Shown: piece after piece, positions 49,967 through 64,000 of the stretch
Numbering within the stretch: position 1 is the first letter of the stretch
Layout of the letters: the number at the start of each line of letters is the position of its first letter
DNA from: Rhizobiales bacterium 2SD
GTDB taxonomy: Bacteria > Pseudomonadota > Alphaproteobacteria > Rhizobiales > Beijerinckiaceae
Direction of reading: 5' to 3'
DNA: 64,000 nucleotides
Assembly: GCA_005502805.1 (NCBI GenBank)
Contig: SCMY01000009.1
Span: 1 to 64,000 of the forward strand
Position numbers and translations under genes: made by a program
The notes under the pieces: generated by a model
Told to the model about the DNA's origin: nothing
What the model saw: the letters and a program-made list of their open reading frames with translations, nothing else
Databases searched by the model: none

Positions 49967-52510
49967 ATGACGATGCATGCGAAGCATGAAGCGCCCGCGA
50001 GCGGGCCGGGCACGATCGATATTCCGGTCGACGGGATGACCTGCGCGTCCTGCGTCGGGCGCGTGGAAAAGGCGATCTCAGCTGTTCCCGGCGTCAGCGC
50101 AGCCGCGGTCAACCTTGCGACCGGCAAGGCGCGGGTGACGCTAGCCGGCGCTGAAACCAGCGCGATCGCCGATGCGATCCGCAGCGCCGGTTACGAGCCC
50201 GGCGCGACGACGATCGCGCTGGCGATCTCGGGCATGACCTGCGCGTCCTGCGTCGGGCGGGTCGAGAAGGCGCTGCGCGCTGTACCCGGTGTCTTGAGCG
50301 CCGAGGTGAATCTCGCAACCGAGCGGGCGACGATCGGGGTCGCGGATGGCTCCATCACGCCGGCGCTTGTCGCCGCCGTCGTGGCCGCCGGCTACGAGGC
50401 CAAGCCCCTCGACGAGGGATGCAACGATGATGGCGATGCGGCCGCCGCCCGCCGCGAGGCCGAGCAGAGCGCACTCTTCCGTGCCGTCGTCGTCGCCGCT
50501 CTCGCCACCTTGCCGCTGCTGGTGCTCGAAATGGGGCCGCATCTGAGCGAGGCCTTCCATCACTGGCTCTATGCCCGCATCGACGCCTTCGTGCTGAAGC
50601 TCATCGCCTTCGGCCTCACCACGATCGTGCTGTTCGGGCCGGGCCTGCGCTTCTTCCTGAAGGGCTGGCCGGCGCTCATGCGCGGCGCGCCCGACATGAA
50701 CGCGCTGGTCATGCTCGGCGCCGGCGCCGCCTATGCCTATTCGGTGGTCGCGACCTTCGCGCCGGGCTGGCTGCCGGCCGGCACCGACTACACCTATTTC
50801 GAGACCGGGGCGGTGATCGTCACTCTGATCCTGCTCGGGCGCTGGTTCGAGGCCCGCGCCAAGGGCCGGACCAGCGAGGCGATCAAGCGGTTGGTCCAGT
50901 TGCAGGCGCGCTCGGCGCGGGTGCTGCGCGACGGCGTCGAGAGCGAGATCGCGATCGAGCATGTCCGCGTCGGCGATCTCGTTCTGGTCCGGCCGGGCGA
51001 GAAGATCCCGGTCGACGGCGAAGTCGTCGACGGCGCCTCCTATGTCGACGAAGCCATGGTGACCGGCGAGCCAGCCCCCGCTCACAAGAGTGTCGGCTCG
51101 GCCGTGATCGGCGGCACGATCAACCGCAACGGCGCCTTGCGCTTCCGGGCGGAGAAGGTCGGCGCCGATACCTTGCTCGCCCAGATCCTGCGCATGGTCG
51201 AGCAGGCGCAGGGCGCCAAGCTGCCGATCCAGGCGCTGGTCGACCGTGTCACCAACTGGTTCGTGCCGGCGGTGATCGCCGTCGCACTGGCGACTTTCGC
51301 GGCGTGGCTCGCCTTCGGCCCCTCGCCAGCACTAACCTATGCGCTGGTCAACGCGGTCGCGGTGCTGATCGTCGCCTGCCCCTGCGCCATGGGCCTGGCG
51401 ACCCCGACCTCGATCATGGTCGGCACCGGCCGCGCCGCCGAGCTCGGCATCCTGTTCCGCCAGGGCGCAGCGCTGCAGGGCCTGAGCGAGGTCGGGACCA
51501 TCGCCTTCGACAAGACGGGAACGCTGACCAAGGGCCGGCCCGAGGTGACGCGCTTCATCGCCGCCGAGGGTTTCGCCGAGCAGGACGCGCTGCGCCTCGC
51601 CGCCTCGGCGGAGAGCGCCTCGGAACACCCTTCCGCTGAGGCGATCGTCGCCGAGGCGAAGCGGCGCGGCCTTGCGCTCGCTCCGGCCGCCGACTTCACG
51701 GCCGAGCCCGGCCTCGGCATTTCCGCTCGGGTCGAAGGCCGCGACATCCTGGTCGGCTCGCAGAAGCTGATGGCCCAACGGAAGGTCGCTCTCGGCGACC
51801 TGGCCGACAAGGCCGCCGCTTTCGCCCGCGACGGCGAGAGCCCGCTCTACGTCGCCGTTGACGGCAAGCTCGCCGGCCTCGTCACCGTGGCCGATCAGGT
51901 CAAGCCGGGCTCATCGGCCGCGATCGCGGCGCTGAAGGCGCTCGGCCTGCGCATCGTCATGGTGACCGGCGACAACCGCGCCACCGCCGAGGCGATCGCG
52001 GCCCGGCTCGGCATCGATGCGGTCGAGGCCGAGGTGCTGCCGACAGACAAGGCGGCGATCGTCCAGCGGCTGCAGGCGGATGGAGCCAAGGTCGCCTTCG
52101 TCGGTGACGGCATCAACGACGCTCCCGCCCTGGCCCAGGCCGATATCGGCATCGCCATGGGCGCCGGCACCGACATAGCGATCGAGAGCGCCGACATCGT
52201 GCTGATCTCCGGCGATCTGCGTCACGTGCCGGAAGCGATCGGTCTGTCCAAGGCGACGATGACCAATATCCGTCAGAATCTCGGCTGGGCCTTCGGCTAT
52301 AATGTACTGCTGATCCCGGTTGCGGCCGGCGCGCTCTACCCGCTCTGGGGCGTGCTGATGTCGCCGGTCTTCGCCAGCTTCGCCATGGCCTTCTCCAGCG
52401 TCAGCGTTCTGGCCAACGCACTCAGGCTGCGCCGCTTCTCAGCGCGACAGGACACCATCGCCGCGACGCCGAACTCGGCCCCGGCAACTGCCTTCGGGAG
52501 GATGGGATGA
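49967..52510 (+). CDS. copA: Copper-exporting P1B-type ATPase
   Basis: An 847-residue Cu(I) exporter of the inner membrane. Two N-terminal HMA domains each carry [14 protein letters not shown] (about residues 23-36 and 89-102). The membrane copper site is [11 protein letters not shown], phosphorylation DKTGTLT, and the hinge [11 protein letters not shown]. Helices are eight in number. It is controlled by the CueR box upstream and overlaps cueR by four bases, so the exporter and its sensor are translated together. Confidence 0.96.
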
Positions 52511-52899
52511 ATATCGGACAGGCCGCCGAAGCCTCCGGCGTCAGCGCCAAGATGATCCGCTACTACGAGCAGATCGGGCTGATCGAGCCGCCGGCGCGCT
52601 CGCAATCGGGCTACCGGGTCTATGCCGAGCCGAACGTGCACACGCTGCGCTTCGTGCGCCGTGCCCGCAGCCTCGGCTTCTCGGTCGAGGAGACCGGAGC
52701 GCTGCTGGCGCTCTGGCGCGACCGCTCGCGGGCGAGCGCCGATGTGAAGACGCTGGCGCTGAAGCATGTCGCCGAGCTGGAAGAGAAGGCGGCGGCGTTG
52801 CAGGCGATGGCGGCGACGCTGCGCCACCTCGCCAGCCATTGCCATGGCGACAAGCGGCCGGACTGCCCGATCCTCGACAAGATCGGCTCGCCGAACTGA
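52507..52899 (+). CDS. cueR: Copper-responsive MerR-family regulator CueR
   Basis: A 130-residue CueR. The winged HTH ([23 protein letters not shown]) precedes the dimer helix. The Cu(I) loop has C112 and C120 ([12 protein letters not shown]), and residue 77 is serine, as in monovalent-metal sensors; the same positions occur in E. coli CueR. It activates copA at the box 49905-49935. An inverted repeat after it may end transcription. Confidence 0.95.
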
Positions 52900-53468: not shown

Positions 53469-54890
53469 ATGAGCGTAGCGGATACGGCCATGCCAGCCGC
53501 GCAGGCCCGTCGGCGTCGCCCTCCGGCCCCCGAGCCGGAAGAGCGCGAGTTCGGCCGGCTCGAATTGCTGCTGCGCCTGCGCCGCAACCCGCTGACGATC
53601 TGGCGGGCGCGCCATTTCCGCGAGCCGATCGTCGCCGGCGAGGGCCTGTTCGGCTATGGCGTCGTCGTTTCCGATCCTGAGGTCGTGCGGCACGTGCTGG
53701 TCGAGAACGCAGCGAACTACCGCAAGGACGACCTGCAGCGCACCGTCCTCGCGCCCGGGCTCGGCGAAGGGCTGCTGACGGCGGAAGGCGAGGCCTGGAA
53801 GCGGGCACGGCGGACCCTGGCGCCGCTGTTCACGCCACGCTCGGTCGCAACGCTGGCGCAACGCATGACGGAGCCGGCGGAGCGCACGGCCATGCGGATG
53901 GCGCGCCGCCGCAGCGGCCGCATCGTCGACATCTCAGCCGACATGACGCGCGTCACCTACGACATTCTGGCCGAGACGATGTTCTCGAACGCGATCGCCG
54001 GCGGCGCCGACGCCTTCGGCAAGGCGCTGACCCGCTATTTCGAGACGCAGGGGCGGATCGATCCGCTCGACGTGCTCGGCGCACCGACCTGGTTGCCGCG
54101 CATCGGCCGCTGGATGGCCCGGCCCGCGATCTCGTTCTTCGAGGCTCAGGTCAAGACGATCATCGCCGAGCGGCAGCGCCTGCATGCCGACGGTGCCTGG
54201 AAGACGGAGAAGCCGGACCTGCTCGACGCCCTGCTCGCGGCGCGCGATCCCGAGACGGGAACAGGGCTCAGCGAGGCCGAGGTCGGCGCCAACATCGTCA
54301 CCTTCATCGGTGCCGGCCATGAGACCACCGCCAACGCCCTGACCTGGTCGCTCTACCTCATCTCGCTGGCGCCCGATATGCGCGACGCGCTCGAAACCGA
54401 GATCGATTCCGCCGGCGATGATCTCGCAGCCGCGGCGCTGTCCGGCGACCGCCTCGCGCTCACCCGCGCCGTCATCGAAGAGGCGATGCGGCTCTATCCG
54501 CCGGTGCCGTCACTGTCGCGGACGGCCCTGGCCGACGACGTGGCGGGCGCGTGCGTCATCCCCGAGGGCGCACTGGTGGTGATCTCGCCCTATCTGCTGC
54601 ACAGGCACCAGACGCTTTGGCAGGCGCCGGATCAGTTCCGGCCGGAGCGCTTCCTGCCAGGGGCCCGTGAAGCGATCTCCCGTTACGCCTATCTGCCCTT
54701 CGGAGCCGGACCGAGGATCTGCATCGGTCAGCAATTCGCGATGGTCGAAGCGGTGATCGTACTGGCCGTACTGTTGCGGCGGCTACGTTTCGACTATGCC
54801 GGGAGTGACGCACCCATGCCGGTCCAACGCATCACACTGCGTCCAGGCCAGGGCATGCCGATGCGGGTCACGGTACGGCGCACCAGGTGA
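53469..54890 (+). CDS. Cytochrome P450
   Basis: A 473-residue P450, soluble. The I-helix oxygen motif is GAGHETTA, the ExxR motif lies in EEAMRLYPP, and the heme loop is FGAGPRICIGQQF, with cysteine as the iron ligand. The N-terminal 20 residues are disordered and Arg/Pro-rich. It resembles CYP102/CYP110-like fatty-acid-type P450s in overall pattern. No redox partner gene is adjacent, so it likely uses a shared ferredoxin system. Substrate unknown. Confidence 0.93.
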   Translation: MSVADTAMPAAQARRRRPPAPEPEEREFGRLELLLRLRRNPLTIWRARHFREPIVAGEGLFGYGVVVSDPEVVRHVLVENAANYRKDDLQRTVLAPGLGEGLLTAEGEAWKRARRTLAPLFTPRSVATLAQRMTEPAERTAMRMARRRSGRIVDISADMTRVTYDILAETMFSNAIAGGADAFGKALTRYFETQGRIDPLDVLGAPTWLPRIGRWMARPAISFFEAQVKTIIAERQRLHADGAWKTEKPDLLDALLAARDPETGTGLSEAEVGANIVTFIGAGHETTANALTWSLYLISLAPDMRDALETEIDSAGDDLAAAALSGDRLALTRAVIEEAMRLYPPVPSLSRTALADDVAGACVIPEGALVVISPYLLHRHQTLWQAPDQFRPERFLPGAREAISRYAYLPFGAGPRICIGQQFAMVEAVIVLAVLLRRLRFDYAGSDAPMPVQRITLRPGQGMPMRVTVRRTR

Positions 54891-55259: not shown

Positions 55260-55715
55260 ATGCATGCCAAGACCTTGAAGGCCGGAACCATCCTCGTCGC
55301 GGGCGCGCTCGCGCTTGGCGGCTGCACCCAGTCGCAGGAACGCGTTGCGGCTGGTGGCGCACTCGGCGCCGGCGCCGGCGCCCTGATCGGCGGCGCGGCC
55401 GGCGGCTGGCGCGGCGCGGCGATCGGCGCCCTGATCGGCGGTGTCGCCGGCCTCGTCATCGCCGACGCGATCGAGAAGGAGCGCGCTCGCGAGGCGGCCT
55501 ATATCGCCGCGCGCTCGGGTGGCTCGAACGTTCAGAGCTTCCGCAATTCGAGCGGCCAGGCCGTCGTCGTGCGCGCCCGCACCGTGCGCACCTACAACAA
55601 CAGCCAGGGCCAGCGCATCCGCGTCGTCGAGCGTAGCGTGACCCGCGAAGGCAAGGCCGCCGGCACCGACCAGGTCGAGGTCAATCTGGCCACGAACGAA
55701 GCCTCCGGCATCTGA
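55260..55715 (+). CDS. Glycine-zipper lipoprotein
   Basis: A 151-residue predicted outer-membrane lipoprotein. The signal sequence ends at the lipobox LALGGC. Residues about 33-70 form a glycine-zipper membrane hairpin (GGALGAGAGALIGGAAGGW...IGALIGGVAGLVIADAI), as in SlyB and the Rickettsia 17-kDa antigen. The C-terminal part is a small beta-rich domain (VVVRARTVRTYNN). ATG 55260 is chosen at the signal-peptide start. It may maintain envelope integrity. Confidence 0.85.
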   Translation: MHAKTLKAGTILVAGALALGGCTQSQERVAAGGALGAGAGALIGGAAGGWRGAAIGALIGGVAGLVIADAIEKERAREAAYIAARSGGSNVQSFRNSSGQAVVVRARTVRTYNNSQGQRIRVVERSVTREGKAAGTDQVEVNLATNEASGI

Positions 55716-55735
55716 GCCGTAGGCAATCGAGAATC

Positions 55736-55763
55736 GGTCCCCCCTCGCTTGCGAGGGGGGACC
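55736..55763. terminator. Perfect 13-base hairpin without a T tract
   Basis: GGTCCCCCCTCGC and GCGAGGGGGGACC are fully complementary around a TT centre, which gives a very stable hairpin between the lipoprotein stop and the next start. No T run follows; it could end transcripts, block read-through translation, or be a protein-binding dyad. Confidence 0.6.
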
Positions 55764-55782
55764 CCATGAGTACCGAACCGAG

Positions 55783-57612
55783 ATGACTGCGCGCGCGCTG
55801 ACGAAACGAGCCCTTTGCCTGACGGTTGCCTGCCTCACGGCGGCGTCGCCGGTGGCGGCTACGGCGCAGACGCAGATGATGCAGGGATTCGATCCCTACA
55901 ACCCGTTCGGATCCGCCGCTCAGATCCTCTGGCAGCGCATCCAGCAGCAATGCCCCCAGCTCAAGCTGCCGGTCACCATCGGCATCGCCTCGCGCCCCGC
56001 GACGCGCGACGCCTTCACGACCGACCAGGGCAACAACATCATGCAGCAGATCCGGGCTGCATTCTCGAACATCCCGGGCATCACGATGGCGCCCTGGCTC
56101 GACATCGACCCGATCAAGGGCATCGTCGACACCGGCGTCCTCGACAATCCTCTGGCCGGCGACAACAAGGAACAGCTCAGCAAGATCCAGCTCGAGGTCC
56201 GGGCATCCGGCTACAAGGTCGGCGCAGCGACGCGCTTCAACCTGTCGGCGCATGGCTGGAACGGCTATGAGAGCTGCTCGCCGAGTCTCGACCCGTTCCC
56301 TGTTTCCCAGGATTTCATCGGCGAGGAATACAGCTCGACCGACGAGCTCTTCAACAAGGTCGCCGCCGGGGTCTGGGCAGCCTCGGTCGACACCGCCAAC
56401 CCGATGACCCTGTCGGTCAGGATGCTGAGCGGGTTGCCGGTCAGCCCCGGCTGGCAGGAATTCTTCTCCGACAAGCTCCGGCGCGCGCTGAGCAAGCAGA
56501 ACGCCGAGGAGAAGGAGACCAAGATCCGGGCCGAGCGCCATGTCTCGCTCGTGATCGCCCACGACCCGGCCGGCGCCGAGGACAAGCGCTGGGAAGGCAT
56601 GGTCACCGTCGATCCGCGCCCGCTCGGCTACCGGATCTCGGTCAGCGTCAACCGCCGCAACACGACGCCGATCTCCGAGGACGGGCTGGTCACGCTCGAC
56701 GAATTGCCGACCATGCAGCAATGGGCCGCGCTCGGCCCCGAGGCGCAGACGCCGCGGCTCGACCAGACGCCGATGCGGGTCAACGCACGCATCGAAGGCG
56801 GCCGTGCCCTGCAGCAATACCCCTTCCTGGTCGCGCAGGAATCTTATGTCGAGGTCGATATCCCGACCGGCAGCGTCCGTGGCCCGCACCCCGCCGTGCC
56901 CGTCGATGTCCTCGGCCGCAACAACGCCCCGATGAAGACCATCCACATCGCCAATCCGAGCCGGCCGAATCTGCGGCGCTACAAGCTCGGCCCCGGCGAG
57001 TACACGATCCGGGTCGCGAGCGCCGGCCCCGTCGCGCAGGACTTCCAGCTGCGCGCGCGCGCCGTCGACACCAACGAGATGCTGATGCCGGAAGCGCCGG
57101 GCAGGCTGCTCCGCCGCTATCAGGACTGGTACGCCAGCGTCGTTGAAGATCCGCGCACCGGCCAGCGCACCTGCTTCGCCTATACCGCCGCACAGGAAGC
57201 CGGGCCGCGCTACTGGCGCGAACAGGCGCCGTTCATCCTGCTGCAGGCGAGCAGCGGCGGTAACGGCGATCTCCAGCACCTGATCGAGGACAAGCGCTAC
57301 TACAAGCCGAACACGCCGTTCGAGGCGGTGATCCGGGAAGGTGGCGGCATGGCGCGCCGGCTCAATGCGGCTCCCACCGCGGCAGGCAACTTCATTCGTC
57401 CGATGAAGCAGGGCTCGAACGGCCAGCCGATCCTGGATATGGACGCGGTCGCCGGCTACAATCGGGGCACGACGCTCGAGATCAGGGGCACTGCGCCTGA
57501 CGGGCGCCCGGCCCATGTGATCTACTCGCTGCAGGGCTACCGCGCCGCCGTCAACGCCATGTCGCTCGAATGCGGCCGGCGCGACCTCGCCAACGCCCTG
57601 GTCTGGAAGTAA
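55783..57612 (+). CDS. Exported protein of unknown function
   Basis: A 609-residue protein with a signal peptide (ending AATAQ). I recognise no domain. The N-terminal third (LKLPVTIGIASRPATRD...PGITMAPWLDIDP...LEVRASGYKVG) reads like an alternating alpha/beta fold; the rest is beta-rich, with five or more cysteines, including SCSP and TCFAY. It lies 68 bases after the lipoprotein gene and heads the 55.8-64 kb group. The composition is that of a secreted or periplasmic protein. No catalytic motif is apparent. Confidence 0.75.
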   Translation: MTARALTKRALCLTVACLTAASPVAATAQTQMMQGFDPYNPFGSAAQILWQRIQQQCPQLKLPVTIGIASRPATRDAFTTDQGNNIMQQIRAAFSNIPGITMAPWLDIDPIKGIVDTGVLDNPLAGDNKEQLSKIQLEVRASGYKVGAATRFNLSAHGWNGYESCSPSLDPFPVSQDFIGEEYSSTDELFNKVAAGVWAASVDTANPMTLSVRMLSGLPVSPGWQEFFSDKLRRALSKQNAEEKETKIRAERHVSLVIAHDPAGAEDKRWEGMVTVDPRPLGYRISVSVNRRNTTPISEDGLVTLDELPTMQQWAALGPEAQTPRLDQTPMRVNARIEGGRALQQYPFLVAQESYVEVDIPTGSVRGPHPAVPVDVLGRNNAPMKTIHIANPSRPNLRRYKLGPGEYTIRVASAGPVAQDFQLRARAVDTNEMLMPEAPGRLLRRYQDWYASVVEDPRTGQRTCFAYTAAQEAGPRYWREQAPFILLQASSGGNGDLQHLIEDKRYYKPNTPFEAVIREGGGMARRLNAAPTAAGNFIRPMKQGSNGQPILDMDAVAGYNRGTTLEIRGTAPDGRPAHVIYSLQGYRAAVNAMSLECGRRDLANALVWK

Positions 57613-57629
57613 TCGGCCGACCCATGCGC

Positions 57630-58202
57630 TCAGGCCAGCGCCAGCGCCGCCTGCGTCGCCTGCATGTCTCCGGCCGGCTCAAAACGGATCAGCCCCCGCC
57701 GAACACCGGTTACCGTGTCGAGCACCGCCGGAAGCGAGCGGGCGGAGCGTTCGAGCACGCCGAGCATGGCGGGAGCCAGGCGCGGATCGTTCCAGACTTC
57801 CTGGGCACGACGGCCGAATGGCGCGAGGAAGGGCTCGATCCCGCTCCAGGCGAGGATGATCTCGCGTGGGCGGGTCGCCGCCGCCTGGAGGCCCGACAGG
57901 ATGCGTTCGATGATCGGAGCCCAGACGCCGTCGTCATAGCGTCCCGCGGGCAGGAGGACGATCAACCGCCCCGCCTCCAGCAGGGCCGCCTGGGCCTGCG
58001 AGGCGGCCTGAGCCGGATCGCGGAAAACCCGCGGCAGCAGGCGCGGCGCGACAAAGCTCGCCTCGACCTCGCGAGCTTCGGCCCCGAGGGCTTCCGACAG
58101 CAGCATTCGGCGCGACGCAACGTCCTCGCCGACGGCCGTCATGCCGAGCGCCGCCGGCAAAGCGGCCGGCAGCGCCGCGAAGCAAACCGATTCTGCCGCC
58201 AT
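57630..58202 (-). CDS. Hypothetical protein, divergent from the SrfB-like pair
   Basis: A 190-residue protein with a small-hydrophobic and charged composition (RLIVLLPAGRYDDGVW, REIILAWSGIEPFLAPFG). It has no signal peptide or known motif. ATG 58202 (MAAESV) is preferred; earlier in-frame codons up to 58364 would overlap the region in front of the divergent gene. It converges on the 609-residue protein gene with an 17-base gap. Coding character is better than the opposite strand. I cannot assign a function. Confidence 0.5.
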   Translation of the reverse strand: MAAESVCFAALPAALPAALGMTAVGEDVASRRMLLSEALGAEAREVEASFVAPRLLPRVFRDPAQAASQAQAALLEAGRLIVLLPAGRYDDGVWAPIIERILSGLQAAATRPREIILAWSGIEPFLAPFGRRAQEVWNDPRLAPAMLGVLERSARSLPAVLDTVTGVRRGLIRFEPAGDMQATQAALALA

Positions 58203-58326
58203 CGCATTCCGCTCCGTTCGAACCATCGCCATGCCGTACCCGATGTCCCGGGCAGGCAGGTTTCCGCAGAGGCGGCCAACCGGCCGCAAGATCAGGCCCG
58301 AGCGACGAAAGTCGAGCCCGTGGCAT

Positions 58327-58338
58327 GTCTTGCAAGAC
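58327..58338. promoter_or_regulatory. Candidate dyad GTCTTGCAAGAC
   Basis: A perfect 12-base palindrome in the 200-base divergent region between the 190-residue gene and the 794-residue gene. It may be a regulator site, but such short palindromes also occur by chance. Confidence 0.3.
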
Positions 58339-58405
58339 GGCGGGCCATCGCGCAAGGTCCGCACACATTGTTCCGCTCAGCCCGACTTCTCCGGAGCCCG
58401 TTTCC

Positions 58406-60790
58406 GTGACTTCCTCCGTGGCGCCGGTCGCCATCATCTGGGACGGCTCACGTCATGTCGCCGCGCTCTGGCGGCACAGCGCACCAGTCCGTTTCCTCGC
58501 GGCCGAAGATGCCGGCGGCCGGATCAGCCTGATCGCTGCGGCCGATGACGGGACAGCACCGTTGCTCGCCACTCTGCCAGCGGGAAGCCGCGCCCTCCAC
58601 GCCGTGACAGTGGAGAGCAATGGCGGCCTGACCACGATCCCCGTGCAACTCGACGAGAAGCTGTCGCTGGCCGAGGCCGACCGGGGCGCTGCGGGTCTTT
58701 CGCTGATTCAGGCCTATAGCGACGATCAGGGTGGGCTCGCACAGCTGACCGAGCCGAGCGCGCCCCCGGCAGCGGACGCCGATCTTCTGGCCTCCGGCCT
58801 CAATCGCGCCAGCGGCTCGGAGGCCGAAGGCTACCGGCTCCTGGTCGGCCCGTTCCTTCACCCAGAGGACGAGCGCGCCACCACGACCACCATCACGGCG
58901 CGCCGCGCCGAGACCGGCGGGCTGACCCTCGCCTTCGCCGGCAACGGCGATGACGCGACGCCGGACGGGCTGCTTGTGGCGCACCTTCCGGCGGCCATGC
59001 GCGAGGCCAGACAGGTGCTGGCGCAGATCGACCAGGACCTCCGGCTCGCCCTTGAAGCCGAGCTCGACACGCTGGCCGCGGCGCCTGCCGACCAGCGCGA
59101 CGTCGACGCGACGGGCCTTGGCCGCGTCGCCGCGCTCCGGCGCGGTTTTCGCCTGCTCCGGCCTCGCGCCGAGACCGAAGGCAGCCTGCTCTCGCTTCCC
59201 GACTGGGTCGAAGCGGACGACATCGTCGTCTTCGCCGAGCCGCGTCGCCAACTCCTCTGGAACGGGGATGGCGAGACGGTCGGTGGCAACCCGATGACAT
59301 TGCGCTGGCAGGACGGCGCGTTCGCGGCATTCCCGCACGGGGCACGCTACAGCGCGTCCGTCGCAACCGGTCTGACAGTCGGCCAAGGCGGCGGCAATGC
59401 CCTTGTGGTCACGACGGCAGGCACGGCCGCGCCGTTGCACGATGATCTCGTGCTCACCGCCGGCCGGCTGGCCGAAGGATTATGGCGAATGACGAGCGCA
59501 AGCCGGCCGGCTCGCCTCGGGGCCCTGCTGGACGAACTCGCCATCCGCGCCGCCCAGGCGCCGGCCGGCCCGCTCGCCCGGCTCGACGCATGGACCAAGA
59601 TTTCCACGACGAAGCCCTCCGCCACTCCAGCCGGCCTGCTCGAAGCAGCGGCGACAGTGACCGGAATCGACGCAGGCCGGATCGACGAGCTTAGCGAACG
59701 CGCACTTGGCGAGCAGATCGCCATGCTGCTGCGGACGTGCTCGCAGCCGGCCCTCGCGGCCCGCGCCTGTGCGGTAAGGCTGCTCCTGCCGCTGCCCGGG
59801 GCGGATCGATCGGAAGCTGAGCTGGCGCGGCTTCTCGCCTGGTATGAAGATCCTGCGCTTCCGCAGACGCTCGCCCGCGAGGCGATGGCTCTCGCCGGGC
59901 ATGATCGGCGGGCGATGCGGCTGCTGCACGACATCGCCGCGAGCGCCCATCAAAGCTGGATCGAGCCCGAGCTCGCCGCCGAGGTCGAGCAGGCCATGGC
60001 GGATGCCGCCACGCGCAGCGGGCAACGCCGGCTCTCGCCTCTCGATGCCTTGTTGCTCGATCTGCGCCGGCAGCCGCAGCGGCAGCCTGCTCCCGGCCTT
60101 GAGGCCGTCGCCCGGATGCGTAGCGAGCTCGGTGAGGCGGCGCGGCAGGCGAGCCAGCCGGCGGCGATCACGGATGAGCTGACGCGCCGGCTCGGTGAAC
60201 TCACTCCCGGCGAGATCGTCCTCCTGCACGGGCACTTCGCCGCCTTGCGGCGTGAGGTGGAACAGGCGGCCGCCGCGGCAGACCTCATCCGCGGTTGGGA
60301 GGAGGCGGCCGGATATCCAGGCCTCGCCGCCCGGGCTCATCGTGGCGGCGATCCCGTCAGGGGCGCCGCACGACTCACCGCGACGAGCCGCCAGTTCGCC
60401 GGCTCGTTGTCACATATCGAAAGCCTTGGCGCGGCCCTGACCGGCCTATCGACGCAGATCGACGCGTTGCTTGGCCCTGCCGATGGCGCGACGGAACGTA
60501 GCCGAGCGCTGCGTGCGACCCTGGAAAGCTATGGCCGCCTGCTACTGGCGCAGCTGGTGGTCCGAGAGGCGGATGCCGCTTTCGCCAGCGTGCCCTTTGC
60601 CGGAAAAGCGCTCGCCGACCCACAGGATACCGGCTTCGGCGCCGCCTATCGCCGGCTCAGAGCCGGGACCGGCGACATGCTGCCGCGCTACCTCGCCGCC
60701 GCCGCTGCGCTGACGGGCCTCGATCATCACTGGGGCACCGGGCTTTCCGGGCCAACCTCTGCGGACACCGCTCCGAGGCAGGACGCATGA
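58406..60790 (+). CDS. Large protein of unknown family, partner of the SrfB-like ATPase
   Basis: A 794-residue soluble protein that I do not recognise. It begins VTSSVAPVAIIWDGSRHVAALW, suggesting a beta-rich N-terminal half (to about 380), and then becomes strongly helical, with Ala/Leu/Glu-rich stretches to the C-terminus. No Walker A, signal peptide or transmembrane segment is seen, so it is not the GTPase SrfC. GTG 58406 is chosen because earlier frame codons run into the divergent region; an ATG at 58325 would add 27 residues. Its stop overlaps the SrfB-like start (ATGA), so the two products are probably made in fixed ratio. Confidence 0.75.
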   Translation: MTSSVAPVAIIWDGSRHVAALWRHSAPVRFLAAEDAGGRISLIAAADDGTAPLLATLPAGSRALHAVTVESNGGLTTIPVQLDEKLSLAEADRGAAGLSLIQAYSDDQGGLAQLTEPSAPPAADADLLASGLNRASGSEAEGYRLLVGPFLHPEDERATTTTITARRAETGGLTLAFAGNGDDATPDGLLVAHLPAAMREARQVLAQIDQDLRLALEAELDTLAAAPADQRDVDATGLGRVAALRRGFRLLRPRAETEGSLLSLPDWVEADDIVVFAEPRRQLLWNGDGETVGGNPMTLRWQDGAFAAFPHGARYSASVATGLTVGQGGGNALVVTTAGTAAPLHDDLVLTAGRLAEGLWRMTSASRPARLGALLDELAIRAAQAPAGPLARLDAWTKISTTKPSATPAGLLEAAATVTGIDAGRIDELSERALGEQIAMLLRTCSQPALAARACAVRLLLPLPGADRSEAELARLLAWYEDPALPQTLAREAMALAGHDRRAMRLLHDIAASAHQSWIEPELAAEVEQAMADAATRSGQRRLSPLDALLLDLRRQPQRQPAPGLEAVARMRSELGEAARQASQPAAITDELTRRLGELTPGEIVLLHGHFAALRREVEQAAAAADLIRGWEEAAGYPGLAARAHRGGDPVRGAARLTATSRQFAGSLSHIESLGAALTGLSTQIDALLGPADGATERSRALRATLESYGRLLLAQLVVREADAAFASVPFAGKALADPQDTGFGAAYRRLRAGTGDMLPRYLAAAAALTGLDHHWGTGLSGPTSADTAPRQDA

Positions 60791-63700
60791 CCACTTTGCC
60801 CTGCTACAATCTCGAGACCCGGCTCGGGAGCTTTGCCGCGACCATTGCGCTAGACCGCAGCGGCGAACTGATCGACCTCCTCTCCTTCGAGGCGCCGGAG
60901 GATATGGTCAAAGCGGTGACAGTCTCGCTCGTCTCGCATGCGCCAAGTCTCACCAGCGGTGTCGATATCGGCTGGCTTCAGGGCAATGCCCTGCTCGACA
61001 AGGCCGCGATCCGTGCAGGCGAGCGGCTGGTACTCGGACTGAAGCGCGATGCGGTGATGCGCGCGGTCGCCAATCACCGGGCCCAGGCCGATGCCGACAG
61101 CGACGCCAGCCTCGAAATCGCCTTCTCCACGATCGTCGAGACAGCCGGCGGCACCCGCGCCTCGCCGCGCCGCCTCCTCAAGATCGCGGCGCTGGCCGGC
61201 GCCTCGCAGCCGGAATGGCGCATCGAGCCGGTCGAAATCGACCTCGACTCGCTGCAGGCCGGCAAGCAACTCGCGGTCGGTCAGATCGCGATCGACATTC
61301 CCCGAGACATCGTGCTCGAAGGCCGGCGCGGTCTGACCATCGAGGCCAGTTGTTTCGGTATCAAGGCACAGCATCTCTCGCTCAGCGTCGCTGCGCCCAT
61401 GGATCATTCGGTCTCGCTCAGGCGCTTCCCGGATACCGGCACCGCGACGAGCCGGCACCTGGTCTGGCTCGCCGACGCTCCGGCGCTGGCCGGCCAGGAG
61501 GTGCGCCTCGACGTGACGCTGACGCGCGACGCTGTGCTCGACTTCGTCGACGAGACGATCCAGGCCAATCCGAAGGCAGCGCTGCAGGTCCGGCTCACCG
61601 CCAAGCTCGGCGGCTGGGTCGGCCAGGACGGCGCCGGCCATGATCCGGATGGCCCGGCCAAACCCTGGTCGAGTGCGCTCGAAGCCCGCTCGGTGCCGGT
61701 CCGCAGCCAGAATCGCGGTGAGGTCGCGCTGACCATCGCCGGTCAGCATTTCGCCTGCCCGCTCGGCGGCGGCGCCCAGTTCGAGATCGCGGGCGGCCTC
61801 AATGCCGAAGTCGACCCGGACGACGAGACCTCGATCGTGCGCTGCGGCGGACTGGTGATCGATCTGCGACGCTGGCCGCTGACCCGGACCGCGCCGCTGA
61901 CCGTCGAGGTCAGCAGCCGGATGGGCGAAAGCGAAATCGGCGAGCCGCCGACGCCCTTCCCGCTCGAGATCGTGCGCGAGGGCGATTTTGGCCGGCGCGG
62001 CCGCGTCGTCGTGCCGATGCAGAACCTGACGACGACGTTGTCGCGCGCGGTTCGCACCGGCGGCGCAAACGTGCTGCGCGGGCCGATCACCGTTTCGCTC
62101 GCGATCAAGGCCGGCGACGAGGGCGGCAAGGCCTTCGCACAGGCGAGCCTGCCGCTGCGCTATAGCCGCCGCGTCCACCGCCTGCCTATCTGTATCGACC
62201 TCGGCGCCTCCGCCACCTCGATCTGGTCCGGTGCGCCACGCGCCGCCGGCCGGGCGACCGAGATCAAGCCGCTGGCGCTCGGCACCTGGCTTGCCGCCCA
62301 TGTCGATCCGCGCCATGGCGAGGCCGCCTTGCAGGACACCGGCGCCGCGCCGTTGATCCCGAGCCATATCGGGCTCGATTCGGGCAATCATCTGCGGGCA
62401 GACCATGCTCCGCACAGCCTGCCGGACCTGGCTCTGATCGGATCCGACCGCGCCAGCGTGGCGCGCCGGCTGAAAGCATTCGCGCGACGCTACGACGTCT
62501 CCGCTCCGGCTCCGCCACCGCAATCCGGCCTGCCCGAAAACGGTCGGAGGATCGACTCGCTCAAGCATGCGCTGACCTCCGGCGCCGTCTCCTTGACGCT
62601 GAACGAGCAGGTCCATCGCTACGACGCCGCGACCGACCGCGTCGTCGCCACCAATACGGTCGAGATCGCGCCTTTGGTCGCGGACGTGCTCGACGAATTG
62701 GTCGACCTCTATGTATTGCGGCTCGGCGAGGATCGCCTGCGCGTCGAGGATCATGCGCCGCCGCCGGTGGTGCCGCGCATCCTGGTCTCCTGCCCGAGCG
62801 GCATCGGCGACGAGATCGCCTCGCGCTATCGCGCTGCGCTCGAGCTCTTCGCGCAGCGCCTGGAACGGCTCTTTCCCGGCGCCACCAGCTTCCCCGACGC
62901 GGCCGTGACCGTACCCGAGGCGGTCGCGGCGGCGCGCTATGTCGCCAGCCTGCCGGAAGTCCGCGCCGCCGTGCCGGACCAGAGCGAAGCGCTGCTGGTC
63001 ACACTCGACATCGGCGGCGGCACCAGCGACGTCGCGCTCGCTTCCCTACGCCGCGACGGCGACCGGCTGAACCATCAGACGCTCGCCACCTTCGGCCTCC
63101 CGGTCGGTGGCGACCTGATCGACGAGGCGCTGACCGGCATCGCCGCGACCCTGATCGACCGGGCCATGGACGGACAGGACACGCATTGGCAGCCGGCTTT
63201 CGCGGAAGCCTCGCTCGCCCGCGCCATCCAGCGCGAGGACGCCGCCGCACTGGCGGCCCGCAGCTGGCTGCGTAACGCGGTGAAGCAGGCCAAGGCGCGC
63301 CTTGCCACCCGCCTCAGCGAGAAGGCGCAGAGTTCCGGCGCGGCTTATCGCTGGGATGCCGATGCGGCCGACGAGACCTTCGACCTGGTGCTCACCGAAG
63401 TGAAGTCGGGCGGCGACCCCGCCGGCCTCTACATCGCCCAGAATGAGCCCAGGCTGGCGGATGTCACGCAGCGACCCGGCCTGCAGCTCGCGCTCGACGA
63501 GCCCGACAAGGCCGGCACGCGCCGGCTCATCCTGAAGATATCTCGGGCAACGCTGGAAAAGGGCGCCGGCGAAGCCTCGCAACGCCTGGCCGAGATCGGC
63601 GCCGTGCTCGGCGGCATGCTCCCGCGGCTGGCCCGCGCCGCCGGCCCGAACCCGCTGCGCCGTCCGACCGTGATCATGGTGCCGACCGGACGCGCCGCGC

Positions 63701-64000
63701 TCTGGCCGCCGATCTTCGAGGCGATCGCGGCTGAAGCCGACGCCAGCCGCGCCGCTTTCCCGTTCGAGCGCCCATTCTCGCCAGCAGCGATGAAGAAGGC
63801 GGTGATCGCGGGAGCCGCGATCCTCGGCATCGAGGGCGACATGGCCGGCAGCGCCGTGCAGCACAAGAACCCGCTCGGCATCGCCGCCATGGCGGTGCAG
63901 ATGCGCGATCTCGGCGCGACCGGCCTGCGCACCGAATTCGCCGCCGAGCGCATCCATTATCTCGGCTACGACATCGCTTCCGGCGCGCGCGTCCATGCCG
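60787..64000 (+). CDS. Hsp70/actin-fold ATPase protein, SrfB-like (partial)
   Basis: The gene continues beyond the window; 1071 codons are visible. Residues 1-460 are a beta-rich region of unknown nature (three immunoglobulin-like repeats seem possible). From residue 466 an actin/Hsp70-type ATPase appears: phosphate-1 LPICIDLGASATSIW, phosphate-2 LDIGGGTSDVAL with D741, and an adenosine-like motif TVIMVPTGRAALW near 960. This order resembles SrfB, a family named from a Salmonella virulence locus. It is coupled to the 794-residue gene. Placement in SrfB is tentative; the ATPase fold is fairly certain. Confidence 0.65.
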   Translation, partial: MTTLPCYNLETRLGSFAATIALDRSGELIDLLSFEAPEDMVKAVTVSLVSHAPSLTSGVDIGWLQGNALLDKAAIRAGERLVLGLKRDAVMRAVANHRAQADADSDASLEIAFSTIVETAGGTRASPRRLLKIAALAGASQPEWRIEPVEIDLDSLQAGKQLAVGQIAIDIPRDIVLEGRRGLTIEASCFGIKAQHLSLSVAAPMDHSVSLRRFPDTGTATSRHLVWLADAPALAGQEVRLDVTLTRDAVLDFVDETIQANPKAALQVRLTAKLGGWVGQDGAGHDPDGPAKPWSSALEARSVPVRSQNRGEVALTIAGQHFACPLGGGAQFEIAGGLNAEVDPDDETSIVRCGGLVIDLRRWPLTRTAPLTVEVSSRMGESEIGEPPTPFPLEIVREGDFGRRGRVVVPMQNLTTTLSRAVRTGGANVLRGPITVSLAIKAGDEGGKAFAQASLPLRYSRRVHRLPICIDLGASATSIWSGAPRAAGRATEIKPLALGTWLAAHVDPRHGEAALQDTGAAPLIPSHIGLDSGNHLRADHAPHSLPDLALIGSDRASVARRLKAFARRYDVSAPAPPPQSGLPENGRRIDSLKHALTSGAVSLTLNEQVHRYDAATDRVVATNTVEIAPLVADVLDELVDLYVLRLGEDRLRVEDHAPPPVVPRILVSCPSGIGDEIASRYRAALELFAQRLERLFPGATSFPDAAVTVPEAVAAARYVASLPEVRAAVPDQSEALLVTLDIGGGTSDVALASLRRDGDRLNHQTLATFGLPVGGDLIDEALTGIAATLIDRAMDGQDTHWQPAFAEASLARAIQREDAAALAARSWLRNAVKQAKARLATRLSEKAQSSGAAYRWDADAADETFDLVLTEVKSGGDPAGLYIAQNEPRLADVTQRPGLQLALDEPDKAGTRRLILKISRATLEKGAGEASQRLAEIGAVLGGMLPRLARAAGPNPLRRPTVIMVPTGRAALWPPIFEAIAAEADASRAAFPFERPFSPAAMKKAVIAGAAILGIEGDMAGSAVQHKNPLGIAAMAVQMRDLGATGLRTEFAAERIHYLGYDIASGARVHA

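Follow-up and report, generated by a model that had tools for sequence, protein, structure and literature searches.

The right-hand end of the 64,000-base stretch of DNA analysed in the present study (the window, bases 1-64000 of contig C29 of Rhizobiales bacterium 2SD, a contig of 242158 bp in a genome of 6.27 Mb and 29 contigs) probably holds the front part, about half, of the gene set for an accessory machine of peptidoglycan synthesis. The genes, lettered here from A onward, continue beyond the window, and coordinates above 64000 refer to the contig, numbered on from the window. At the centre stands gene E, which encodes a giant protein of 1179 residues on the forward strand (60787..64326, of which the window holds 60787..64000). 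Downstream of it on this strand come F (495 residues with an FHA-like C-terminus; 64453-65940), G (a class B penicillin-binding protein (PBP) of 885 residues; 65937-68594) and H (a SEDS-like protein of 1011 residues; 68591-71626), and directly upstream on that strand lies D (794 residues; 58406..60790). Overlaps of 4 bases join D to E, F to G and G to H. An original prediction, made from the window sequence alone, had proposed a system of five genes around an SrfB-like actin/Hsp70 ATPase; all five genes were recovered, the giant frame being cut by the window end, and the predicted ATGA overlap of the last two lies at 60787-60790. Herein, we propose that G and H would be a dedicated inner-membrane pair of class B transpeptidase and SEDS glycosyltransferase, which would polymerise lipid II and crosslink the product, as judged from their motifs and from the known activity of SEDS-class B PBP pairs. 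E would be a cytosolic ATPase of Hsp70/actin fold that joins this pair in a complex and switches, clusters or positions it, control running from E to the enzymes, a role modelled on that of MreB for RodA-PBP2 and of FtsA for FtsW-FtsI. F, soluble and FHA-like, might connect E either with the membrane pair or with some phosphorylated protein. D might be a further cytosolic partner, and in Bosea A, B and the OmpA protein N might serve as anchors in the outer envelope.

The assignment of the two wall enzymes is based on families and catalytic motifs. The transpeptidase family PF00905 is matched by G at 47.7 bits against a cut-off of 22.1 and is the sole family found in it at E<=1, with no glycosyltransferase 51 domain; the best NCBIfam name is pbp2_mrdA (E 5e-15). 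The motifs PGS[TS]FK, SSNL and KTGTA are kept in all four lineages aligned and in each of 12 Bosea proteins, and G was classed as a class B PBP on the PF00905 match over the cut-off together with SxxK, SxN and KTG. H gives weak matches to FTSW_RODA_SPOVE and rodA_shape, both below their cut-offs, and is therefore, with respect to the PF01098 cut-off, called divergent and SEDS-like. The motif QPSExxK is typical of SEDS proteins; H keeps QPVE[LFV]GK and an Asp-Phe motif (NDFI) aligning with TDFIFA of the FtsW of its own genome, and it was placed among SEDS proteins on the combination of QPxExxK and an Asp motif aligned with FtsW. We take the aspartate of this motif to be the catalytic SEDS Asp. 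An unusual N-terminal extension precedes the SEDS part of H.

E comprises a mostly beta N-terminal region (residues ~1-460), an Hsp70/actin-type nucleotide-binding core (~464-1020) and a mostly beta C-terminal region. The phosphate-1 (DLGAS at residue 471), phosphate-2 (DIGGGTSD, 741-748) and adenosine-type (PTGRAALWPP, 966-975) motifs, which had been noticed from the start, are kept in 12 of 12 Bosea proteins. Residues D471, G473, S475, A476, D741, G743, D748, G968, R969, A971, L972, W973, P974 and P975 are invariant in an alignment of 18 rows and also in one of 14 rows that includes two relatives with 20-21% identity, and this invariance argues that the motifs are not chance matches. Structure prediction gave the core the nucleotide-binding fold of the Hsp70/actin superfamily, as had been anticipated. 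The resemblance to DnaK, seen in the predicted fold of this domain, lies by sequence around phosphate 2, with an hhalign probability of 95% against three DnaK proteins (a thin target profile); on the other hand, DnaK has nothing corresponding to the N-terminal 460 residues of E, and neither DnaJ nor GrpE is found among the scanned neighbours of E. As a single sequence E matches no PDB sequence at E<=1, it does not reach the Hsp70 profile PF00012 (E 0.2 in G546, a distant genome described below), and none of the four hits of the MreB profile PF06723 in its own genome falls on it. Membership in the MreB or DnaK family was therefore rejected, and both were kept as fold relatives. No transmembrane segment was predicted in E or D, membrane topology being estimated solely by a home-made hydropathy scan. 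On its motifs and predicted fold E would bind ATP, and it may also hydrolyse it.

The gene order is conserved far beyond a single strain. Bosea is a genus of Rhizobiales, and the nearest named relatives of protein E are from Bosea, at 94% identity among the matches listed. E was found in 12 of the 61 Bosea genomes sampled, the present one included, and several of the other genomes are drafts. All 12 of these loci hold A to I, with D to H in the same order, and J and K wherever the fetched stretch reaches them; this survey, with A-D accompanying E in every locus that carries it, supports the earlier view of a conserved gene set spanning cytosol and envelope. In one of these genomes (G705, locus L108), the E gene changes frame in its last part, which holds a stop, and C is broken across two frames; the other genes of the set are intact. 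The order E-F-G-H is found again in three distant genomes, G256, of the same taxonomic order, and G546 and G1132, of another family of the class; among the matches listed, the E protein of G546 shares 88% identity with a protein labelled Gymnodinialimonas sp. Identity to the Bosea proteins is 23-27% in G256 and G546 and 28% for H of G1132. Profiles of Bosea against those of G256 and G546 gave probabilities of 100% for H, 100% for G, 99.6% for E and 98.2% for F, and the G1132 cluster was matched to Bosea by phmmer. In the frames of B to H, most substitutions between the present genome and L005 are at third codon positions, and the ratio of nonsynonymous to synonymous substitution rates (dN/dS) is 0.05-0.20 (0.05 for B, 0.20 for D); against the more distant L008 it is 0.18-0.43, with B at 0.43. 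Thus B to H are read as real genes under purifying selection.

The spread of E is patchy. Within the order, 20 of 297 genomes match E at E<=1e-3, the relatives being the present genome and G256 (a 1195-residue frame); in the remaining 18, frames of 418-728 residues give a match close to phosphate 2, and these were not checked one by one. In a search of 398 genomes 22 matched, with full relatives in the present genome, G735 and G546; the other 19 matches are short and lie in frames of 453-685 residues, those at L054-L056 having DnaK-like starts and the rest not being checked. In a third search, of 385 genomes, only the present genome and G546 matched. E occurs in 1 of 20 genomes of the G256 family and in 3 of 149 of the G546 family, among them G1085, which is without F-G-H. 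At least 14 relatives near 40% identity (P0016-P0029) were obtained, 10 listed from JGI only and four with NCBI; these protein-database searches scored the 8000 (7998) candidates sharing most words, and their lists are lower bounds. A tblastn search for carriage on plasmids gave no match at E<=1e-5.

The host background bears on what such a set might do. A PF01098 search of the present genome found one canonical SEDS protein besides H, best named FtsW (327 bits, just under the model cut-off of 337.5). The PF06723 search found no MreB there; its four hits are two DnaK and one FtsA (by NCBIfam) and L091, best named 'molecular chaperone' below the cut-off. Eight places match PF00905: a class B protein about 8 kb from ftsW, which by context is FtsI, five nearest to class A types, one nearest to D-Ala-D-Ala carboxypeptidases, and G itself. 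This inventory agrees with the absence of PBP2, RodA and MreBCD from Rhizobiales reported in a passage of PMC8546619. MreB matches were not strong in five further Bosea genomes and G256, the best being 6e-17 (in frames that were not identified), whereas G546, G1132 and G1085 each gave a strong one at 1.6e-142 or better; RodA was searched in the present genome only and MreB in that genome and nine others. The presence of the set both with and without MreB indicates an addition and not simply a replacement.

Several observations weigh against an accessory peptidoglycan synthase. G reaches 55 bits against an equivalog cut-off of 455 for PBP2/MrdA (TIGR03423). H reaches 21.8 bits against the PF01098 cut-off of 26.4 (19.6 in the genome-wide search) and 26.8 against 336.7 for RodA (TIGR02210), and its profile finds no PDB chain at E<=0.1. 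Hsp70 and MreB tie as fold matches of E, and the FHA match of F has a middling Z-score on a model with a predicted local distance difference test (pLDDT) score of 68. A to D are without a recognisable sequence counterpart in the distant clusters. The E relative of G1085, whose match is confined to the Hsp70 core, stands on a 33.9-kb contig without F-G-H, which indicates that E-like proteins can act elsewhere. Finally, a set found in 12 of 61 Bosea genomes is not a general growth machine. The G1085 protein (L084 2490-6344) has 1284 residues and is preceded by an uncharacterised gene of 635 residues; proteins of the E type may extend beyond this system.

The best-known SEDS-class B PBP synthases are tied to MreB or FtsA, and comparison with these shows where the present set differs. 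Like the divisome core, in which FtsA acts with FtsW-FtsI, it joins an actin-fold protein to a SEDS-class B PBP pair, but the present genome has separate FtsA-, FtsW- and FtsI-type proteins and E differs from FtsA in length and family. Unlike MreB in the Rod complex with RodA-PBP2, E has large regions before and after its core in its 1179 residues; MreC, MreD and RodZ were not recognised among the proteins scanned here, the set is apparently a single accessory operon, and it occurs in genomes with MreB (G546, G1132) and in those where none was found (Bosea, G256). The components belong, as divergent members, to known superfamilies, and their combination is apparently undescribed: among the open-access papers listed, nothing was found joining SEDS, RodA or PBP with SrfB, Hsp70-like ATPases or FHA in such a setting. 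A bolder view, which we offer only tentatively, is that of a self-contained third wall-growth machine directed by an actin/Hsp70 protein and additional to those built on MreB-RodA-PBP2 and on FtsA-FtsW-FtsI; E would be its giant ATPase, F its FHA-like adaptor and G-H its SEDS-class B PBP pair. If this is true, some Rhizobiales strains would switch on ATPase-guided, SEDS-driven wall synthesis where or when polar growth cannot serve. Here a conserved operon couples a third, very divergent SEDS-class B PBP pair to an ATPase-like protein whose core is of the Hsp70/MreB kind, and this poses a testable question: did control of SEDS enzymes by proteins of actin/Hsp70 fold evolve repeatedly, or do the two generally go together? 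Against the lack of PBP2, RodA and MreBCD reported for Rhizobiales, some Bosea have a second SEDS-class B PBP pair, carried on an accessory operon that it should be possible to delete, and the motif and synteny data point to concrete targets for point mutants and pull-downs.

Other explanations of the same genes have to be weighed. The original prediction had likened E to SrfB, and a SrfB-type (SrfABC-like) exported or cytotoxic complex is now scarcely credible. E shares with the SrfB of srfABC operons its large size, its Hsp70/actin-type motifs and general character and the phosphate-2 region, and the actin/Hsp70 fold and ATPase-like nature that were predicted have held; the kinship with SrfB has not, since PF07520 (Pfam cut-off 27.1 bits) found no match in the present genome, where E has no Pfam match at E<=1, and the same search placed SrfB over the cut-off in 7 of 200 genomes of the phylum. 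Two SrfB proteins gave an hhalign probability of 22%, in the phosphate-2 region only, against the 95% for DnaK, with thin target profiles in both cases, and E was rejected as an SrfB member. A search beyond base 64000 for an SrfC-type GTPase had been suggested; PF10139 was found in none of the flanking proteins scanned (genes further out were not scanned). The conserved partners there are the class B PBP and SEDS-like genes, the most telling part of the set, which lay out of view of the original prediction, and this alternative is already contradicted. A phospho-regulated system of wall repair or stress, like the actinobacterial fhaA-fhaB-pstP-rodA-pbpA-pknA-pknB locus (PMC6554272), is a more serious candidate, although we consider it unlikely: the FHA-like parts of F and of the H N-terminus would read a Ser/Thr kinase signal and switch the SEDS-class B PBP pair on, and E would be a chaperone that assembles the pair and not a filament. 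The FHA-like end predicted for F is consistent with this, as are the closeness of the E fold to Hsp70 as much as to MreB, a [IVL]GR..L.Q....A...H stretch at the N-terminus of H in all four lineages, and a weak FHA_2 match at the N-terminus of the G1132 SEDS protein (E 0.0027, below the cut-off). FHA domains usually have a Ser three residues before the His; the stretch in H is without it, and the H protein of Bosea gave no reported match to FHA_2. In G256, VWA, PP2C, kinase and CHAT genes lie upstream of the cluster (L046 190-6876), the kinase gene holding a stretch that looks FHA-like by eye. For the preferred reading too, the VWA, PP2C and kinase genes together with the FHA-like parts of the set suggest control by phosphorylation, in the manner of the actinobacterial locus, which, in the passage of PMC6554272 that describes it, places FHA proteins, as F may be, beside SEDS and class B PBP genes and, as in G256 only, includes a PP2C and kinases; its seven genes named there include no Hsp70/actin ATPase. 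However, the G256 kinase and E are ~6.6 kb apart, with the CHAT gene and an integrase-like frame (by eye) between them, and the other clusters have no recognised kinase neighbour: the scanned genes adjacent to the Bosea cluster include no recognised member of a kinase or phosphatase family, and thus no linked PP2C and Ser/Thr kinase pair, and inspection by eye of the unscanned frames flanking the G546 and G1132 clusters revealed none.

The same neighbours have been considered as signs of conflict. In a defence island, the wall enzymes and the ATPase would answer attack by phages or by toxins that act on the wall, with the GTPase, VWA, kinase and CHAT genes around the distant clusters serving as sensors. 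The patchy spread in Bosea and in the families of G256 and G546 agrees with this, as do the genes upstream of the G256 cluster and a P-loop gene of G546 with weak similarity to DO-GTPase2 (E 0.012, below the cut-off). Nevertheless, the explanation appears quite improbable, for the best PADLOC match among nine proteins submitted (E 0.0038) is not meaningful, the scan of Bosea proteins brought up no family of nucleases, toxins or sensors, and the same P450-like flank is kept in 11 of 12 Bosea loci, unlike a mobile island, with no plasmid match. That E-D and F-G-H are separate functions held together by operon inertia is very improbable: the G1085 relative without F-G-H would fit such a chance neighbourhood, but collinearity is kept down to ~25% identity in lineages of other families, and the frames overlap in Bosea. 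We retain the accessory peptidoglycan synthase as the preferred reading.

The distant clusters hold further genes. In G256, G546 and G1132 a protein of 265-281 residues, with transmembrane segments predicted in the two tested, lies between E and F, and one of 775-820 residues follows H, with four transmembrane segments predicted in the two tested and a coiled-coil character judged by eye. These sets also include a gene of the size of D (825-850 residues), a P-loop gene and one of 324-329 residues; in G1132 an 832-residue gene is directly upstream of E. No sequence similarity was detected between D and these genes of 825-850 residues, that of G1132 included, and a homology between them was rejected for want of any sequence signal. 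The P-loop GTPase-like gene and its 324-329-residue partner adjoin the clusters in all three genomes (L047, L049, L083); GxxxxGK[ST] is kept in all three, and it is possibly a new GTPase family. Gene C (190 residues, reverse strand, 57630..58202; its start was set from L008/L009, in which homology begins at residue 55 of a longer 244-residue frame) is divergent from its neighbour D. The P-loop gene of the three distant clusters is arranged likewise, and by this position C may be its counterpart. The GTPase set was the best profile partner of C, but at an hhalign probability of only 0.5-3%; C was rejected as a degenerate GTPase, and the correspondence stays a lead. Neither C nor D has a Walker A motif in any of the 12 Bosea orthologues, in agreement with the P-loop-free 794-residue protein first described.

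Several flanking genes complete the locus. A, a glycine-zipper lipoprotein of 151 residues (55260..55715, forward strand; PF13488, E 4e-7), and B, an exported protein of 609 residues without a family and with no Pfam match at E<=1 (55783..57612, forward strand), were seen in Bosea only, and D, E and F are likewise without a family in Pfam or NCBIfam. On the other side, I (71809-73311), J (73379-73936) and K (73933-75489) are convergent genes on the reverse strand; I was rejected as a P-loop protein, its GxxxxGKS stretch having lost the first Gly in G725 and its later DxxG not being kept. Beyond K lie exported and OmpA-type genes, then cobalamin genes recognised by eye. Three apparently exported genes occupy contig positions 75676-78553 (374 residues, a 207-residue OmpA-domain protein and 347 residues), are also present in G690 and are possible envelope partners; the OmpA-domain gene is N (76679-77302, reverse strand), whose membership in the set is uncertain. 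Within the window, the cytochrome P450-like gene (by eye; 53469-54890) flanks the set in 11 of the 12 Bosea loci with E and was not found in the fetched stretch beside the G725 copy. Further upstream, at 49967-52899, a heavy-metal P-type ATPase with two CxxC metal-binding domains is followed by a MerR/CueR-type regulator (by eye), which looks like an ordinary copper-export pair.

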